Shown piece by piece: positions 25,525 to 53,984 of a stretch of DNA of 64,000 nt (positions are counted from its first letter, which is position 1; the number at the start of each line of letters is the position of its first letter). The stretch lies in contig NZ_JABBND010000012.1 of NCBI RefSeq assembly GCF_012933465.1, positions 62,001 to 126,000 of the forward strand. Direction: 5' to 3'. This DNA is from Actinomycetospora sp. TBRC 11914. GTDB lineage: Bacteria; Actinomycetota; Actinomycetes; Mycobacteriales; Pseudonocardiaceae. Below the pieces are notes generated by a model. The model made no database searches and was not told the DNA's origin. It saw only the letters and a list, made by a program, of their open reading frames with translations. A program made the position numbers and the translations under genes.

Positions 25525-26799
25525 GTGACCGACATCGCGAGACCGACAGAGGCCACGGGGGAACCGTTCCCCCGGGTCGCTCCTGTCCTCGTGCCGGACG
25601 CGGCGACGGAGCGGGCGCTCCCCGTGGCGCCCCCGACGACGGTCCGCACCGCCAGCGGCTCCCGGAAACTCTCCTGGGACGTGCTGCGCGTCGGCTTCGT
25701 GCTGCTGGTGATCCTCTACCACTCGACGTTCATCGGGCCGCTCGTCTACCACGACATCCTCCCGAAGAACCTCGTGTTCCCCCACCAGGTCGGCGCGAGC
25801 CTGCTCCTGGTGCTCTCCGCCTACTTCGTCGCCGCCACGGTCCGCCGGGGCGGCGCGCGCCGGGGCGGGACCGCCCGCTGGTGGTGGGGCAAGATCGCCC
25901 GCCTGCTGCCGGCGTTCTTCGTCGCGACGATCAACGCCTGGCTCTTCCTGCGCTACCTCGCCCCCGACGGCTGGTACTACCCGGGCAAGCGCGACCTCGT
26001 CGCCAACCTGCTGATGCTCTGGCACTGGGACGCGAGCTGGGGCTTCGTCGACGGGTCCTACTGGACGATCCCGGTGCAGCTCCTGGCGTTCTGCCTCGCT
26101 GCCGTGATGTGGCGCAGCCCGCTGGGTCGCGGCGTCGGGCTGCGGGTGGTCATCTGGGCGGCGCTGCTCGTCCCGGCCCTGCAGTGGCACCACCTGGCCA
26201 CGCGGGCGCCGGGCTCGTACTACGCGATGGTCGTCGACGGGGCGGGCATCTTCCGCTGGCACCTGTTCGTGGCGGGCGTGGCGGTGTGGATGTGGTCCAC
26301 GGGCCGGCTGCGCCGCTGGCACTTCGTCGCGATCGAGGTCGTCGCGCTGGCCGAGCACGCGCTGCAGACCTCGATCGTCGACCCCACCACCGGGTGGAGC
26401 ACCGACTGGACCGCCGTGGCGCTCATCGCCCTCGGGGTCCTCGCCATGACCGCCGCCGCGGCCGGCCCCGACTGGGACCGGTGGATCCCGCCCGTCGGGC
26501 GGCGAGCGATCACCTGGCTCGCCGGCATCTCCTACGGGGTGTTCCTCACCCACCAGACCGTCGGCTACGTCGTCATGCGACGCGCGCAGCAGCTCGGGGT
26601 CGGCCCGACCCTGCAGACCGTCCTCATGGTCCTCACCGGCGTGCTGGCCGGGTGGCTGCTCACCCGCGTCGTCGAACGGCCCGGGCACCGGTGGCTGATG
26701 CGCTGGTGGGACCGGGTCCCGGCGCGCTACGGCCGGGTCGCCGTCGAGGCGGCGGTCCCGGTGGCCACGCCGGACCGGTCCCAGGCGACGAGGTCGTAG
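25525..26799 (+). CDS. Acyltransferase 3 family membrane protein
   Basis: 424 residues from a GTG at 25525 (a TTG at 25507 is alternative). The N-terminal helix with LYHSTF and about ten membrane segments fit acyltransferase-3 proteins, which acylate sugars, lipids or antibiotics at the membrane. The last 73 bp overlap the 3' end of the convergent sucrase/ferredoxin-like gene. Confidence 0.75.
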   Translation: MTDIARPTEATGEPFPRVAPVLVPDAATERALPVAPPTTVRTASGSRKLSWDVLRVGFVLLVILYHSTFIGPLVYHDILPKNLVFPHQVGASLLLVLSAYFVAATVRRGGARRGGTARWWWGKIARLLPAFFVATINAWLFLRYLAPDGWYYPGKRDLVANLLMLWHWDASWGFVDGSYWTIPVQLLAFCLAAVMWRSPLGRGVGLRVVIWAALLVPALQWHHLATRAPGSYYAMVVDGAGIFRWHLFVAGVAVWMWSTGRLRRWHFVAIEVVALAEHALQTSIVDPTTGWSTDWTAVALIALGVLAMTAAAAGPDWDRWIPPVGRRAITWLAGISYGVFLTHQTVGYVVMRRAQQLGVGPTLQTVLMVLTGVLAGWLLTRVVERPGHRWLMRWWDRVPARYGRVAVEAAVPVATPDRSQATRS

Positions 26800-27707
26800 G
26801 TCCGCATCGAGGCGGCGCGGCCCGCGCCGCAGGTCAGGGGCGTCGGCGAGACGATCCACCGCTCGCGGACGACGACCTCGACCTCGCCGTCACCGTCCGG
26901 CGCGACCAGCCGCACCGTCCAGCGCTGCGGGTCCTCCGGGTCCTGCCGGGCGCCGGCCGGGGCCAGCGCCGCCACCCGGTGCTCGTCGAGCGCGAGCCGG
27001 ACGTGGTGCTGCGCGGCCTGCACCGCCGGTGCCAGCCCGGCCCGGCCGCGGACCAGCCGCGGGTCGACGTCACCGCGGTCGTACCGCTCGGCGACCTCGA
27101 CGGCCTCGGTGGCCGGCACCCGACCCAGGACGAGCCCGTGGGGGAGCAGCACGACGTTGGCCGCGAAGCGGTCGCCGCCGGTGTGGGTGGTCTCCCACGT
27201 CCGCTCGGGGTGGGTGGCGGCGAGGACCGCCGCGACCGGGCGGCCGCGCATCGCGCAGCACGCGTCGTGCCGGCCGTGGGCGCAGACGAGGTAGACCGGC
27301 TCGTCGGACGGCTCGGTGGAGTGCTCGAGGTCGGCCAGGGCGGCCGGCAGGGCCTCGGGCGCGTCGACCCGGCCCCACCGGACCGACTCGTGGCCCGGCC
27401 GGCAGTCGACGACCGCGAAGCGGCCGCCCGCCTCGGTCGGCGCGCCGCGTGCCGCGGTGCGCCGGATGAGCTGGAAGCGCGCGTCGTGCGTGCGGCAGAA
27501 GGCGTCGAGCGCGTCCACGACGTCGTCGGCGAAGCCCGCCCCGGTGAGGGCCTGGGGGCCCCAGGGCCCGGGGTGCTCGACGAGCAGCCACCGACGCGCC
27601 GGCGGGGCGGACGCGAAGAGCGGGTCCTCGCGCTCGCGGGCGGCGTCGGAACAGCGGAACGGGGTGGTCGGCTGGCCGTTCTGGGTCAGGGCGTCCGAGG
27701 CCGTCAC
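26727..27707 (-). CDS. Sucrase/ferredoxin-like family protein
   Basis: 326 residues from GTG at 27707, which overlaps the JmjC gene stop (GTGA). It has a thioredoxin-fold ferredoxin-like C-terminal half: VYLVCAHGRHDACC (Cys142, Cys150, Cys151) and HTGGDRFAANVVLLPHG, the usual signature. Members are thought to bind a [2Fe-2S] cluster. It is translated with the 2-oxoglutarate oxygenase-like protein, so an electron-donor role is a testable inference. Its 3' end overlaps the acyltransferase. Confidence 0.8.
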   Translation of the reverse strand: MTASDALTQNGQPTTPFRCSDAAREREDPLFASAPPARRWLLVEHPGPWGPQALTGAGFADDVVDALDAFCRTHDARFQLIRRTAARGAPTEAGGRFAVVDCRPGHESVRWGRVDAPEALPAALADLEHSTEPSDEPVYLVCAHGRHDACCAMRGRPVAAVLAATHPERTWETTHTGGDRFAANVVLLPHGLVLGRVPATEAVEVAERYDRGDVDPRLVRGRAGLAPAVQAAQHHVRLALDEHRVAALAPAGARQDPEDPQRWTVRLVAPDGDGEVEVVVRERWIVSPTPLTCGAGRAASMRTYDLVAWDRSGVATGTAASTATRP

Positions 27708-29071
27708 GTGTCCGTCGTACCCGCACGATCGTCCGGAACGCCACCCTCGGCGGCCCCGGAGGGACCGACCGAGTCCGGCGTCACGAGCACGCCCTCGACG
27801 AGCAGGCGCCGGGCGACGACGACGGCGTCGCCGGGCTCGTCCTCGGCGACGTCGCCGAGGCGCACCACGGGCCCGGCGAGCAGCGTCGCGAGCGGGGTCG
27901 CGGCGGCCGCGGGGAGGTCCAGGGTGCGGTCGGGCAGTTCGAGGCGCAGCGGGGCGTCGGTGTCGGCGGCGGCGGGCGGCACCACGCGGTGACGGAGCCC
28001 GTGCCGCAGGCGCACCCGCGACTCGGCGTCCAGGGCGTGGGCCGCCGCGGCCTGGCGCAGCGGGAGCAGCGACTCCGGCCGGTTGCCGGCCCAGACGCGG
28101 CCGCGGAGCCGCCGGGAGGCGCGCCGGGCGCGGTCGTCGTCCCGGGAGCGGTCGGCGAAGTACTCGGCCGCCCGCCGGGCGACGGTCTCCAGGTGCGGGG
28201 CGAGCGCGGCCGGGTCGGAGACGTCGACGCCGAGCGGGAGGGAGGCGCGCAGCTCGGGGTCGTCGGCCAGGCCCGCGAGGAGGGTCTCGAGCAGGGCGTG
28301 GCGGGTGACGACGTGGACGCCGACGGTCAGGTGCGCCGACACCTCACCCTGAGCGGTGGCCGAGTGCAGGAAGCCGCGGGGCAGGTAGAGCGCGTCGCCG
28401 GGGTGGAGTACCTCGTCGAGCAGGGGCTCCTCGGCGGCGCGGGCGCGGACGGCGCCGGCGCGGTCGTCCCAGGGCTGGTTGCGCAGCGGATCGGGGTGCA
28501 CGGGTGCGTGCACGTGCCAGCGCTTGGTGCCCGCGATCTGGAGGACGAAGACGTCGTGCACGTCGTAGTGCGCGGCGAAGCCCGTCGACGAGGCCGGGGT
28601 GACGTAGGCGTTGACCTGCACCGGGTGGCCGAGATCGGCGTTGAGCCCGGCCGCGAGCTCCGCGACCGGCGCCCAGGTGCGGTGCACGCCCTGCAGCACG
28701 ACGGTGTGGCCGTCGGCGAAGAGCGCGGCGACGCGGTCGTCGCGCAGCTGGTCGGAGATCTCGGCCCCGACCCCGCCGTCGCCGGTGAACGACGACGAGT
28801 CGAGCACCTTGCCCTGCTTGGCGATCCGCAGGAACGGGGTGCGCAGCCCGCGGTGGGCGAGCAGCTCGTCGACCGCGCCGAGGGAGAAGAGGTCGCCGAA
28901 CCCGGCCCCGCCGTCGCTGCCGTCGGCGTCCCCGCGGTCCTTGGCGAGGTCGTCGCGGCGGGAGAGCACGGCCTGGCGGCCCCAGGCCTCGCGCGCGAAG
29001 GCGTCGAGGTCGCCCGCGACGGCGCGGCGGAGGTACGGGCGGTCCCCGGAGGTGCTGCTGGGGTTGCTCAT
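27704..29071 (-). CDS. JmjC/cupin-4 (ROXA-like) 2-oxoglutarate oxygenase
   Basis: 455 residues. The JmjC iron site is His168-x-Asp170 in AHYDVHDVFVLQ and His236 in LPRGFLHSA, with LQIAGTKRWHVH and HPGDALYLPRG around it. The C-terminus (about 300-440) is the winged-helix-like part of bacterial ribosomal oxygenases such as YcfD. Those enzymes hydroxylate protein side chains. Upstream on the same strand is a Gly/Ala/Asp-repeat protein and downstream, coupled by GTGA, a ferredoxin-like protein; the repeat protein is a candidate substrate. Confidence 0.85.
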   Translation of the reverse strand: MSNPSSTSGDRPYLRRAVAGDLDAFAREAWGRQAVLSRRDDLAKDRGDADGSDGGAGFGDLFSLGAVDELLAHRGLRTPFLRIAKQGKVLDSSSFTGDGGVGAEISDQLRDDRVAALFADGHTVVLQGVHRTWAPVAELAAGLNADLGHPVQVNAYVTPASSTGFAAHYDVHDVFVLQIAGTKRWHVHAPVHPDPLRNQPWDDRAGAVRARAAEEPLLDEVLHPGDALYLPRGFLHSATAQGEVSAHLTVGVHVVTRHALLETLLAGLADDPELRASLPLGVDVSDPAALAPHLETVARRAAEYFADRSRDDDRARRASRRLRGRVWAGNRPESLLPLRQAAAAHALDAESRVRLRHGLRHRVVPPAAADTDAPLRLELPDRTLDLPAAAATPLATLLAGPVVRLGDVAEDEPGDAVVVARRLLVEGVLVTPDSVGPSGAAEGGVPDDRAGTTDT

Positions 29072-29121
29072 GGCGGTGCTCCCCACGGGCGGTCGGAGGG
29101 TCGGGTCGACGGTGTGGCGTT

Positions 29122-29170
29122 CCGGACGTCGGGTGTCAGCGGTGCGACACCGCTGACACCCGATGTCCGG
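29122..29170 (-). terminator. 23-bp hairpin between repeat-protein and JmjC genes
   Basis: Arms 29122-29144 and 29148-29170 pair at 22 of 23 positions around a cga loop. It lies after the repeat-protein stop and before the oxygenase start on the same strand, so it may attenuate the transcript and make more of the repeat protein than of the enzyme. Confidence 0.7.
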
Positions 29171-29183
29171 GGGTCCACACGGC

Positions 29184-29660
29184 TCAGGCGCCGCCGTCGG
29201 CCCCGCCGTCGCCGCCGCCACCGCGGACGCCGCCGTCGGCCGGTCCGTGCCCGGCGCGGCCGTCCGCACCGCCGTCGGCGCCACCGTCCGCACCACCATC
29301 GGCGCCACCGTCAGCACCGCCGTCAGCGCCACCATCGGCGCCGCCACCGGCGGCGCCGCCGTCCGCGGGGCCGTGCCCGGCGCCGCCGTCGGCCCCGCCG
29401 TCGCCGCCGCCACCGCGGGCGCCGCCGTCGGCCGGTCCGTGCCCGGCGCGGCCGTCCGCACCGCCGTCGGCGCCACCATCGGCACCGCCGTCGGCGCCCC
29501 CGTCGGCCCCGCCGTCAGCGCCGCCACCGGCGGCGCCGCCGTCCGCGGGGCCGTGCCCGGCGCGGCCGTCCGCGCCGCCGTCCGCACCGCCGTCGGCACC
29601 CCCGTCGGCACCGCCGTCGGCGGGCCCGTGGCCGGAGGTGGTGATGTCGTCGTCGTTCAT
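29184..29660 (-). CDS. Gly/Ala/Asp tandem-repeat protein, possible modified-peptide precursor
   Basis: 158 residues. A ten-residue head ([10 protein letters not shown]) is followed by a chain built almost only of Gly, Ala and Asp: (ADGG)n runs punctuated by five HGPADGG blocks with His at 11, 36, 74, 96 and 138. Residues 68-94 and 132-158 are near-identical, showing segmental duplication. There is no signal peptide, membrane segment or cysteine. It is the first gene before the JmjC oxygenase and the ferredoxin-like protein. Substrate of the oxygenase, structural protein or metal binder are all possible. Confidence 0.7.
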
Positions 29661-32832: not shown

Positions 32833-33852
32833 GTGCGACTCGGCGTCCTGGACGTGGGTTCGAACACCGTGCACCTGCTGGTGGTCGACGCCCACCGCGG
32901 TGCCCACCCCACCCCCCAGTCCTCCACCAAGACCTCGTTGCGGCTCGCGGAGCACGTCAGCGACGGGCTGCTGGCGCGCAAGGGCGCCGACGCGCTGGTC
33001 TCCGCGGTCGCCGAGGCGCGCCGCGAGGCCCGGGCGCTCGGCTGCGACGACCTGCTGGCCTTCGCCACGTCCGCGGTCCGCGACGCCACCAACTCCGACA
33101 AGGTCCTCGCGCGGGTCCGCGACGAGACCGGGGTCGACCTCCAGGTCCTGACCGGGCCCGACGAGGCCGCGCTCACCTTCCTCGCCGTCCGCCGCTGGTT
33201 CGGGTGGTCGGCCGGCCGGCTGCTCTCGCTCGACATCGGCGGGGGCTCGCTGGAGATGGCGGTCGGGCGCGACGAGGCCCCCGACGTCGCGCTCTCGCTG
33301 CCCCTGGGCGCCGGCCGGCTGACCCGCGACTGGTTCGCCGTCGACCCGCCCGAGCGCAAGGAGACCCGTGCGCTGGCGGAGTACGTGCACGACACCGTCG
33401 CGCCGGCCGCGGCCGCGCTGCTCGACGGCGGGCCGCCCGACCGCGCCGTCGTCACGTCGAAGACCTTCCGGTCGCTGGCCCGGCTCACCGGCGCGGCGCC
33501 GCGCAGCGCCGGCCCCCGCGTGGAGCGCCGCCTGACGCTGCCCGGCCTGCGCCAGGTGGTCGCGTTCATCAGCCGGATGAGCTCGGCCGACCTCGCCGAG
33601 CTCGAGGGCGTCAGCGCCTCGCGGGCCCACCAGCTGGTGGCCGGCGCGGTCGTCGCGCGGGCCACGATGGAGGCCCTCGACCTCGAGGAGGTGGAGGTCT
33701 GCCCGTGGGCGCTGCGTGAGGGCGTCATCCTCGGCCGGCTCGACCAGGTGCCGCTCGAGGACGGTCCGTTCGCCGCTGACGGGACGTACACCACCGTCCG
33801 TCCCACCGTGACTGGACGACCGGCCTCCGCCACGGCACGGTGGACCGGATGA
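32833..33852 (+). CDS. ppx: Exopolyphosphatase/guanosine pentaphosphatase (Ppx/GppA)
   Basis: 339 residues from GTG. The ASKHA-fold motifs DVGSNTVHLLV (N-terminal), FATSAVRDATN and LSLDIGGGSLEM are intact. It degrades polyphosphate or pppGpp and is linked to the phosphate response by position downstream of regX3. Its stop overlaps the next start (ATGA). Confidence 0.93.
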   Translation: MRLGVLDVGSNTVHLLVVDAHRGAHPTPQSSTKTSLRLAEHVSDGLLARKGADALVSAVAEARREARALGCDDLLAFATSAVRDATNSDKVLARVRDETGVDLQVLTGPDEAALTFLAVRRWFGWSAGRLLSLDIGGGSLEMAVGRDEAPDVALSLPLGAGRLTRDWFAVDPPERKETRALAEYVHDTVAPAAAALLDGGPPDRAVVTSKTFRSLARLTGAAPRSAGPRVERRLTLPGLRQVVAFISRMSSADLAELEGVSASRAHQLVAGAVVARATMEALDLEEVEVCPWALREGVILGRLDQVPLEDGPFAADGTYTTVRPTVTGRPASATARWTG

Positions 33853-35222
33853 CGACGGACGGCCCGCCCCGCCGGGGCTCGCAGCGCAGCGTGGCGGAGC
33901 TGCTCGCCGCCTACGGTGGCGAGTCGCGCGCGCCGTCGCGTCCCGAGCCCGCCCCGGAGCCCGCGCCGGACCCCTACGCGTCCGCTCCCTCCTACGGGTC
34001 GTACGGCTCCTACGACGACCCCTACGACCGTCGGGAGCCCGACCGCGGCCGCGACGCGTACGGCGACCCGCAGGGTCCCGCCCGCACCGGGTCCTACGAC
34101 CGGTACGGCGCCGACCGCCACGACGTCGACCCGTACGGCTCGGGCTCCTACGGCCGCTACGAGGCCGAGCCCTACGGCCGCTACGACGCCCGCGACGGGT
34201 ACGACCCCCGCGACGGCTACGGGTACGGCGGCTACGGCTCCCGGGACGGCTACGGCTCCGGCGGCTACGGCTCCTACGGGTACGACGACGGGTACCGCTC
34301 GGAGCCGCCGCCGTCCTACGGCTCGTACGGGTCCTCGCCCGCCGGCTGGTCGAGCGGGTACGCGGACCTCGACCGCTCGTACCGCGGGCGCGAGGAGCCC
34401 GCCGACCCGTACGCCGGGTACGCCGCGCCCGCGCCGCCCGAGCCCTACGGCTACGCCTCCCCTCCGGCCGGCTACGCACCGGTGCCGCCGCCGGGGGTGC
34501 CGCGCCCGGCAGGGCCGCCGCCCGGGTCGGGCCCGCAGCCGGCGAGCGCGCCCCCGCCCGCCGCGCCGACCGCGCCCTCGTGGTCGCAGCCCGCGCCGGT
34601 CACCGGGGCGTCGCCGGTGCCCGCGCCGCCCCCGCCGTCGGCCGCCCCGACCCAGGTGACGCCCGCCGCGTCGGCGTCGGCCCCGACGCAGGCCACGCCC
34701 GCCGCGTCGGCGCCGACGCAGGCGACCCCGGCCGCCGTCCCCACCCAGGCGACCCCGACCCAGGCCGCTCCGACCCAGGCCGCCCCGCGTCCCGACGACG
34801 GCGGCCCGCCCACGGCGGCGTCCTCGCTGGCGCGTCCGGAGCCGGCCGGCCCGCGGACCACCCGCGCCGACGTCCCGGCCGGGCTCGGCTCCGACGCCGA
34901 CCTGGACGACGACTACGACGACGAGTACGACGACGACGAGGACGACGTCGCCGACCGCCCGACCGCGAAGGAGTGGGTGGTCATCGCCGGCCAGCTCGTG
35001 GTCGGCGCGCTGCTCGGGGCGGTGCTGTGGATCGGGTTCTCCTACCTGTGGCAGTCGCTGCCGGTGGTGGCGCTCGTGCTCGCGGCGGCCGCGACGGGCG
35101 GGCTGGTGTTCGGGGTCCGCGCGATGCGGCGTTCGGACGACCTCCAGACGATGGTGCTCGCCATCGTGGTCGGGCTCGTCGTGACCGTGTCCCCGGCGGC
35201 GTTCGTCCTGCTCGCCCGATGA
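33849..35222 (+). CDS. Tyr/Gly/Pro-rich protein with two C-terminal membrane helices
   Basis: 457 residues. A long disordered head with repeated SYG/YGSYG and later AAPTQ/TQATP units (residues 30-340) leads to an acidic stretch and two membrane helices (VVIAGQLVVGALLGAVLWIGF and MVLAIVVGLVVTVSPAAFVLL). Equivalent in position to the mycobacterial Rv0497 membrane protein. Function unknown; the low-complexity head is prone to variation. Confidence 0.75.
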   Translation: MTTDGPPRRGSQRSVAELLAAYGGESRAPSRPEPAPEPAPDPYASAPSYGSYGSYDDPYDRREPDRGRDAYGDPQGPARTGSYDRYGADRHDVDPYGSGSYGRYEAEPYGRYDARDGYDPRDGYGYGGYGSRDGYGSGGYGSYGYDDGYRSEPPPSYGSYGSSPAGWSSGYADLDRSYRGREEPADPYAGYAAPAPPEPYGYASPPAGYAPVPPPGVPRPAGPPPGSGPQPASAPPPAAPTAPSWSQPAPVTGASPVPAPPPPSAAPTQVTPAASASAPTQATPAASAPTQATPAAVPTQATPTQAAPTQAAPRPDDGGPPTAASSLARPEPAGPRTTRADVPAGLGSDADLDDDYDDEYDDDEDDVADRPTAKEWVVIAGQLVVGALLGAVLWIGFSYLWQSLPVVALVLAAAATGGLVFGVRAMRRSDDLQTMVLAIVVGLVVTVSPAAFVLLAR

Positions 35223-53216: not shown

Positions 53217-53780
53217 TCAGAGCCACTCGCGGACGCCGCCGTGGCCGGAGCATGTCCCCGACTTGTGCTTCGAGTGGCTGTCGGTGCCGTCCTTGCAGAT
53301 GGCCGTGGCCCCGGAGCTGTTGCCGTCCGGACGCTCGACCTGCTGGCCGTCGGAGTTCGTGTAGGTGCCGCCGTACACGTCGCCCGACGAACCCGAGGAT
53401 GAGGAGCCCGAGGACGACGAGCCCGAGGACGATCCGTCGGCGCCGTAGGCCGAGGAGCTCGACGAGTCGTACGTCGACGACCCGTAGGTCGAGGATCCGT
53501 ACGTGGAGGAGCCCGAGGTCGACGAGCCGTAGGTCGAGGACCCGTAGGTCGACGTGCCGGCCGTCGAGGACCCGTAGGTGGACGACCCGTAGGTGGACGA
53601 CCCGTACGTCGAGGAGTCGTAGCTCGACGTCGTCGGGGTCGCCGTCGCCGGGCTGCACGCCGCCGTGCCGGCGAGGAGGGCGAGGCCCGCCACACCACAG
53701 GCGACCCGCCCCCACCGGGACCGTCGACCCGCCGTCCTCCCTCCGTCCCGTCCGTGCGCCCGCTCCACGTCGTGCCCCAT
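53217..53780 (-). CDS. Lipoprotein with SSTYG tandem repeats and DUF3761-like end
   Basis: 187 residues from the ATG at 53780 (gaggggga upstream). Signal and lipobox LLAGTAAC, followed by about ten SSTYG/SSTYD-type units, then Ser/Gly runs. The C-terminal 30 residues (GATAICKDGT, GTCSGHGGVREWL) carry the DUF3761 cysteine/histidine pattern. The repeat DNA is likely to vary between strains. Confidence 0.75.
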   Translation of the reverse strand: MGHDVERAHGRDGGRTAGRRSRWGRVACGVAGLALLAGTAACSPATATPTTSSYDSSTYGSSTYGSSTYGSSTAGTSTYGSSTYGSSTSGSSTYGSSTYGSSTYDSSSSSAYGADGSSSGSSSSGSSSSGSSGDVYGGTYTNSDGQQVERPDGNSSGATAICKDGTDSHSKHKSGTCSGHGGVREWL

Positions 53781-53984
53781 GATCGCTCCCCCTCGGTCGT
53801 CGCTGACGGAGAAGGAAGCGCTCGGTGACCGAGATCTGTTACGAGGATCACTCTCTCGGCCGAACGGACTCATCTCGTAGCCCGTCCGGCACCTCCTTCG
53901 GTACGGATCGGACCTGCCACCTGACCGGGGAGCGGCCACCCCGGCGGACGCCCGTCACACCGCCGCGCCTGGGACACTGGCCCG

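Follow-up and report, generated by a model that had tools for sequence, protein, structure and literature searches.

The window analysed here is a stretch of 64,000 nucleotides from Actinomycetospora sp. TBRC 11914 (contig NZ_JABBND010000012.1, positions 62,001 to 126,000). On its minus strand it carries an operon for a peptide with aspartate-rich repeats, an oxygenase with a JmjC domain and a sucrase/ferredoxin-like (Suc_Fer) protein. The repeat gene is a real gene, conserved beside the oxygenase gene, and the type of peptide follows the clade of the enzyme. We consider it reasonably probable that the product of the operon is a modified ribosomal peptide, with the JmjC enzyme, a relative of NO66, hydroxylating the Asp residues of the repeats as in ribosomally synthesized and post-translationally modified peptides (RiPPs). 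The comparisons presented below point to a family of ribosomal peptides, so far undescribed, with aspartates that are probably oxidised. The parts of the operon are as follows.

29184..29660, minus strand: gene of the precursor-like Asp-repeat peptide, 158 residues, with a head and a repeat core that holds five HGPADGG blocks and many DGGA units
29631..29660, minus strand: leader-like head of this peptide, with the family head motif, of which the window has its own version one residue later (MNDDDITT)
29122..29170, no strand: hairpin between the repeat gene and the JmjC gene, 22 pairs, one mismatch and a 3-nt loop
27704..29071, minus strand: JmjC_2 (PF08007) Fe(II)/2-oxoglutarate (2OG) oxygenase, 455 residues, related to NO66 (PF08007, E 2e-27)
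28364..28570, minus strand: iron-ligand stretch of the oxygenase (His168 at 28568-28570, Asp170 at 28562-28564, His236 at 28364-28366)
26727..27707, minus strand: sucrase/ferredoxin-like (Suc_Fer) protein, 326 residues (PF06999, E 6.5e-16)

Conservation of the repeat gene

The layout agrees with an earlier note on this DNA, which had described three same-strand open reading frames (ORFs), the last two coupled by GTGA. All three lie on the minus strand as an operon, and the GTG start of the Suc_Fer-like gene overlaps the TGA stop of the JmjC gene. The repeat protein is also the Gly/Ala/Asp protein of 158 residues that had been reported, with 73 Gly, 34 Ala, 29 Asp and 5 His; its five HGPADGG blocks start at residues 11, 36, 74, 96 and 138. 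It has no match in Pfam or NCBIfam. Seven other peptides searched against NCBIfam and three against Pfam gave sub-threshold matches only (Ala_zip_lipo, 17 bits for a cut-off of 43; daptide_123, 15.8 for 25; Fibrinogen_BP, 13.4 for 50), and membership of a known peptide family was rejected, as neither database gave a match above cut-off.

The earlier note had made its case depend on the repeat ORF being kept beside the oxygenase in related genomes, and this proved to be so. Within the genus Actinomycetospora, the JmjC gene is present in 17 of 18 genomes, and in 16 of 16 loci including the window (15/15 without it) this gene is preceded by a repeat ORF whose head has the form [MV]-[ND]-DDD-[IM]-T, the 17th locus, L002, being cut off upstream. 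Named genomes were then scanned with JmjC as the seed, and not the repeat; the best 80 of at least 455 confirmed relatives were kept. Each of the 74 named loci whose upstream sequence reaches 300 nt has, on the JmjC strand, a repeat ORF of the DGGA type that ends at most 600 nt from the JmjC start. The same loose test gave 0/73 at 1200 nt further upstream and 0/74 on the opposite strand. Among the matches listed, the closest named relatives of the window locus belong to Actinomycetospora and the loci extend over Kribbella, Pseudonocardia, Saccharopolyspora, Amycolatopsis, Actinokineospora, Blastococcus, Geodermatophilus, Cellulomonas, Cryobacterium, Agreia and Rhodococcus. One further record, L093, is labelled Bacillus sp. 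AZ43 and marked unverified; its operon looks actinobacterial and resembles Blastococcus-type loci, and the organism label is doubtful. In its own genome, the window JmjC protein has one match at E 0.001.

For a wider sample, a profile of 33 JmjC proteins was run against 396 genomes drawn from the phylum, 59 of which matched. Twenty stretches around weaker family matches and 40 others (33 places from the phylum scan and 7 from the family scan) were added, giving 207 loci in total and 183 distinct JmjC genes. For the objective test, an ORF had to have at least 30 residues and a tail rich in Asp but poor in Arg and Pro, and its end had to lie from -260 to +60 nt relative to the place where the JmjC profile was inferred to start; the counts are for distinct loci that have 300 nt or more of upstream sequence, classed by JmjC bit score. 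Such an ORF was present in 102 of 107 loci in the class of at least 400 bits and in 43 of 49 in that of 190-400 bits (41/44 at 250-400 and 2/5 at 190-250), while 54 of 7165 other ORFs passed the test. On the opposite strand, the same 320-nt interval gave 0/107 and 1/49 in these two classes; the corresponding figures were 0/106 and 0/42 for the interval moved 1200 nt upstream, and 5/106 and 0/48 for that moved about 1500 nt downstream. With the looser DGGA test, which rescued four of the five misses, the repeat was present in 106 of 107 loci of the class with at least 400 bits.

Further evidence came from the last 21 codons of the 16 repeat genes of the genus, in which differences at codon positions 1, 2 and 3 numbered 183, 306 and 721, much of the counts at positions 1 and 2 being supplied by two rows (L019 and L027) that stand in another repeat register. 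Conservation, codon-position bias and the per-locus controls rule out that the repeat ORF is a product of chance or the shadow of another frame. Carriage by viruses was also rejected, since five pattern matches in viral contigs included no relative.

Peptide, oxygenase and Suc_Fer partner

The peptides have a common acidic head. A strict motif, [LIVM]-x-[DE]-[DE]-[DE]-[IM]-x-[TS], was found in 108 of 150 peptides, for a mean of 0.05 in shuffled peptides, and a looser pattern in 131 of 150 versus 27 of 150 after shuffling. Heads aligned with the looser pattern read L 65%-x-D 95%-[DE] 93%-D 95%-[IM] 96%-x-[TS] 93%, percentages that, except for L, are partly imposed by the pattern itself. The cores of the 131 motif-bearing peptides contain 34% Gly, 20% Ala and 19% Asp, to which a few ORFs with a misjudged start (e.g. 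L046 and L050) add foreign residues. Two marks of RiPP systems are thus observed, namely a small precursor gene adjoining the gene of a modifying enzyme, and a conserved leader followed by a variable core, the latter comprising at least two kinds of repeat and a short third kind with another leader.

The earlier note had proposed His or Asp as the modified residue. Of these two, Asp is favoured: it is present in every one of the 131 cores (3 to 37 residues, median 17), whereas His is absent from 41 of them, 9 of 90 in the close class and 32 of 41 in the distant class (190-400 bits). In type-A peptides, moreover, the residue preceding G[PLTVM][AT]D is Glu in 173 cases, His in 93 and another residue in 6. 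As Glu dominates at this position, the HGPADGG block of the window is a local version of a mostly-EGPADGG block, and His is disfavoured as a general target. Being the reactive residue that the core classes share, Asp is the better candidate for hydroxylation.

In the distant class, other Asp repeats, of the DGDA and DADG types, stand behind a similar head (for example DADSDATDADADSTDS in L122 and DGDASDASDGDASDA in L174). A third class was assessed with 20 loci (L208-L227; JmjC 144-171 bits) taken from family-scan places and picked with Suc_Fer matches in view. All 20 have a short peptide upstream of JmjC, with leaders that differ from the acidic head; 19 of these peptides end in DNDGND or DNDGNDG (e.g. 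MAQEQANTPPASGLLIGVEPLTTAVDRGKANGAVTDNDGND), and that of L226 ends in DENDNND. These peptides, which precede a JmjC and Suc_Fer pair, are likely a separate RiPP-like family.

The relation between peptide and enzyme was examined on a tree, obtained by a quick search, that included 108 of the 183 enzymes: all 70 outside the top class, and every third one of the 113 within it. The three peptide labels require 5 changes on this tree, for a mean of 47.2 after shuffling of the labels, a comparison that shows clustering only, is made easy by near relatives and includes labels of up to four loci set by inspection. Type A occupies one side of a branch with a support of 98.

Several other arrangements were seen among the distant loci. 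In L127 and L128, VIADNDPSDPVL-type repeat peptides precede a distant JmjC gene and Suc_Fer was not found; upstream of JmjC, L176 has an odd repeat, TEDDENLDAPGEHSQDTGDE, twice, and L167 has GGTYGPRDA / ADGTDQGV units. A plasmid of Streptomyces sp. Mg1 (L229:4721-6946) has a short hypothetical peptide gene, a JmjC 'cupin' gene and an aldo/keto reductase gene in a row. At the S. clavuligerus plasmid locus L228, no peptide candidate passed the filter, though a small hypothetical gene is annotated there.

The active site of the oxygenase is intact, as the earlier note had stated: His168, Asp170 and His236, which form the HxD...H iron triad within the JmjC domain, are invariant in 33 of 33 aligned JmjC sequences. 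N154, Y156 and K183 are also invariant in this alignment, and we take them to be candidates for 2OG binding. The same note had pointed to ROXA-type enzymes. In profile comparisons with solved structures, the closest relative is instead NO66 (E 1.5e-33), followed by MINA53 (2.5e-25), the ROXA-type YcfD of E. coli being much further away (2e-9). Like the window enzyme, NO66 (RIOX1) and MINA53 (RIOX2) belong to JmjC_2 (PF08007) and have the HxD...H iron triad. In the comparison with NO66, the alignment of the window-family profile covers positions 12-399 of 400 and reaches into the C-terminal part of NO66, which is described as a winged helix (PMC6006756). In the window enzyme, such a winged helix would be the candidate for an RRE-type recognition domain that binds the head of the peptide. 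According to the available text of the sources, the known substrates of NO66 and MINA53 are His216 of RPL8 and His39 of RPL27a (PMC6006756), and both enzymes hydroxylate His at C-3 (PMC9994133). Unlike these two, the window-type enzyme adjoins a dedicated peptide gene, and the cores often contain no His.

The Suc_Fer partner is common but dispensable. Of the 78 named loci that have 900 nt or more downstream, 73 contain its gene, which is absent beside the type-A JmjC gene of L032, L037, L045, L075 and L089. In these five loci, comparison by eye of the largest downstream ORFs disclosed no common replacement. Counted over the distinct loci whose upstream sequence reaches 300 nt, the Suc_Fer gene is present in 98 of 107 (at least 400 bits) and in 36 of 44 (250-400 bits). 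Wherever found, it lies on the JmjC strand, and it stands beside JmjC in three peptide classes. Relatives of Suc_Fer also occur away from the operon, being detected in 128 of 200 family genomes (E 1e-20) versus 93 of 200 for JmjC (E 0.001). To our knowledge, 2OG oxygenases generally need no ferredoxin. This, and the absence of Suc_Fer from 5 of 78 named loci, leaves the proposal of the earlier note that the ferredoxin-like protein supplies electrons weakly supported, and a role as obligate electron donor is disfavoured by the existence of two-gene units lacking Suc_Fer.

Apd1 and Aim32, thioredoxin-like [2Fe-2S] ferredoxins that presumably also belong to PF06999, offer a comparison for this protein. 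In 147 of 147 Suc_Fer sequences, Cys19, Cys142, Cys150, Cys151 and His175 are invariant, as is Cys293 in the 143 sequences that reach it. The cluster motif of Aim32 is given as CX8C and HX3H (PMC8482512). CX8C, formed by Cys142 and Cys151, is common to Aim32/Apd1 and all 147 Suc_Fer sequences, in which HX3H was not found, position 179 being D (124) or C (23). Suc_Fer thus differs from Aim32 by an HX3D or HX3C and by the additional invariant Cys19, Cys150 and Cys293. Judged from these residues, it likely carries a [2Fe-2S] cluster with one changed ligand.

The hairpin noted earlier between the repeat gene and the JmjC gene does exist, with 22 pairs and one mismatch. For the intergene of 112 nt, the computed fold has -65.9 kcal/mol (z -5.3), a stability reached by 0 of 200 shuffles. 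No terminator-like site with a T run was found. The gap from the peptide stop to the start of the JmjC profile reaches 100 nt in only 4 of 148 loci (L001, L019, L027 and L050, the window among them); it is at most 75 nt in 133 of 148, which would leave an intergene of about 50 nt if the start is placed as in the window. With so little room in most loci, the hairpin does not qualify as a conserved element, and the part of the claim that made it a regulator of output does not hold in general.

The proposed modification and its alternatives

We propose that the repeat protein is a precursor, in which the acidic head (typically L-x-D-D-D-I/M-x-T) would be the recognition element and the Asp-rich tandem repeat the core. 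The JmjC Fe(II)/2OG oxygenase would bind the head and hydroxylate the core repeatedly. The most likely site would be the beta carbon of Asp in the DGGA units, or more broadly of Asp placed among small residues (A-D-G, D-A-D); this is the position that corresponds to C-3 of His in the reactions of NO66 and MINA53, and its hydroxylation would convert Asp to 3-hydroxyaspartate. Suc_Fer, a probable [2Fe-2S] thioredoxin-like ferredoxin, would be a frequent helper that perhaps serves as a redox switch or keeps the iron of the oxygenase ferrous. The outcome would be a soluble peptide carrying many hydroxy-aspartates, of a kind suited to metal binding. A role as chelator is a guess from the chemistry of hydroxyaspartate, and gains no support from the upstream regions, as no regulator box stands out there. 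We would give little credence to the more precise version, in which a ribosomal poly-hydroxyaspartate of Actinomycetota, made by a dedicated JmjC enzyme with a [2Fe-2S] Suc_Fer as its redox partner, serves as an intracellular multivalent buffer of iron or calcium.

Several observations weigh against Asp hydroxylation in a RiPP-like system. The solved relatives act on His (NO66, MINA) or Arg (YcfD), not on Asp. On the enzyme tree, 32 of 105 inner branches are open, and the tree has several long branches. Below 190 bits, only 2 of 18 loci pass the objective test; L119, L120, L123, L127, L128 and L129 fail the Asp-repeat test, and L150 (JmjC 448 bits) has no DGGA repeat even under the looser test. 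A scan of 127 upstream regions for metal or redox regulator boxes showed no excess over shuffles. Lastly, no protease, transporter or immunity gene is kept in most of 80 type-A loci, as judged from the first 40 clusters of ORFs of at least 70 residues within 5 kb on each side. The only clusters kept in most of these loci are JmjC (80) and Suc_Fer (74), the other large clusters being judged to be overlapping frames. Genes for leader removal or export, a further mark of RiPP clusters, were thus not seen, and maturation and export of the RiPP type are unsupported because no protease or exporter is kept in most loci. Unlinked proteases do occur in RiPPs.

We considered the possibility that the JmjC enzyme oxidises the Asp-Gly stretch in another manner. 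It might desaturate or crosslink the stretch, cleave its backbone or turn Asp into aminomalonate, and there might be two steps, with Suc_Fer as the catalyst of the second. If Suc_Fer were a catalyst, this could account for its five invariant Cys, which are more than the CX8C/HX3H motif needs (PMC8482512), and for its presence beside JmjC in three peptide classes, keeping in mind how the third-class loci were picked. There is also a precedent in RiPPs, SmaO and SmaX being described as converting Asp to hydroxy-Asp and then to aminomalonate (PMC13097080). Yet Suc_Fer is missing from 5 of 78 named loci. Hydroxylation is, furthermore, the usual outcome with NO66-like enzymes, and we regard these other oxidations as rather unlikely.

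In two further explanations the peptide is not the substrate of the oxygenase, and we hold each of them to be improbable. In one, the JmjC protein is a ribosomal oxygenase like NO66 or YcfD, as its solved sequence relatives mostly are, and the repeat peptide is an inhibitor, a decoy or an unrelated neighbour. A fixed ribosomal substrate would leave unexplained that the peptide type changes with the enzyme clade and that the adjacency is kept, whereas other neighbours (which of them are real genes being our judgement) recur in at most a minority of loci. In the other, the repeat protein works unmodified as an acidic polypeptide, either binding metal or serving as a spacer, and the substrate of the oxygenase is a small molecule or the Suc_Fer protein. 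Asp/Gly repeats could indeed bind Ca or Fe unmodified, and a RiPP protease or exporter was not seen in most of the 80 type-A loci. Conservation of the head together with variation of the core is, however, what recognition by the enzyme predicts, and two-gene units without Suc_Fer exist. Hydroxylation of the repeat Asp residues by the neighbouring oxygenase remains the reading we prefer, the substrate relation being one that we infer from the genes.

Surroundings and known systems

Upstream of the operon, on the plus strand, lie a gene of the histidine-phosphatase superfamily (PF00300; 29838..30593), which we take for a phosphoglycerate mutase, and a histidine kinase gene; downstream there is a convergent acyltransferase gene. 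Elsewhere in the window, two other ORFs contain repeats: one at 33840-35222 (+) combines long repeats, both Gly/Tyr-rich and Ala/Pro/Thr/Gln, with an acidic run and a C-terminal part that is hydrophobic, and one at 53217-53939 (-) begins like a lipoprotein and contains STYGS-type units in a tandem run.

JmjC or cupin-like hydroxylases that act on RiPP precursors have been described, namely BipG and PbsQ (PMC12707348, PMC12257519). In these biphenomycin-type RiPPs, a 2OG/Fe(II) enzyme of the JmjC type is combined with a ribosomal precursor, as proposed here; the comparison is one of descriptions. BipG and PbsQ act on Orn, which they hydroxylate as one tailoring step in clusters of several enzymes, and the available parts of these accounts mention neither a repeat precursor nor a Suc_Fer partner. 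Hydroxylation of Asp in a ribosomal peptide is known from the RiPP products of PesHI and SmaO (PMC13060819, PMC13097080), for which neither main text mentions JmjC, and the portions available describe no Asp tandem repeat. Bregman et al. 2025 remarked that bacterial homologs of RRE-JmjC fusions (PF08007) occur in RiPP-like genomic contexts (PMC12710340), a remark that, in the portion available, gives no peptide family, sequence or organism. The strings 'DGGADGG' and 'GPADGG' were not found in the literature searched, nor was the operon described among the papers listed; journals beyond the coverage of that literature may hold an earlier account.

If the proposal is true, a JmjC oxygenase would act as the main enzyme, and not in a late tailoring step, in a class of ribosomal peptides that is widespread, and NO66-like enzymes, known from the hydroxylation of ribosomes, would enter peptide biosynthesis. 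The natural variety of the cores, some of which have no His, lends itself to telling which residue is modified.

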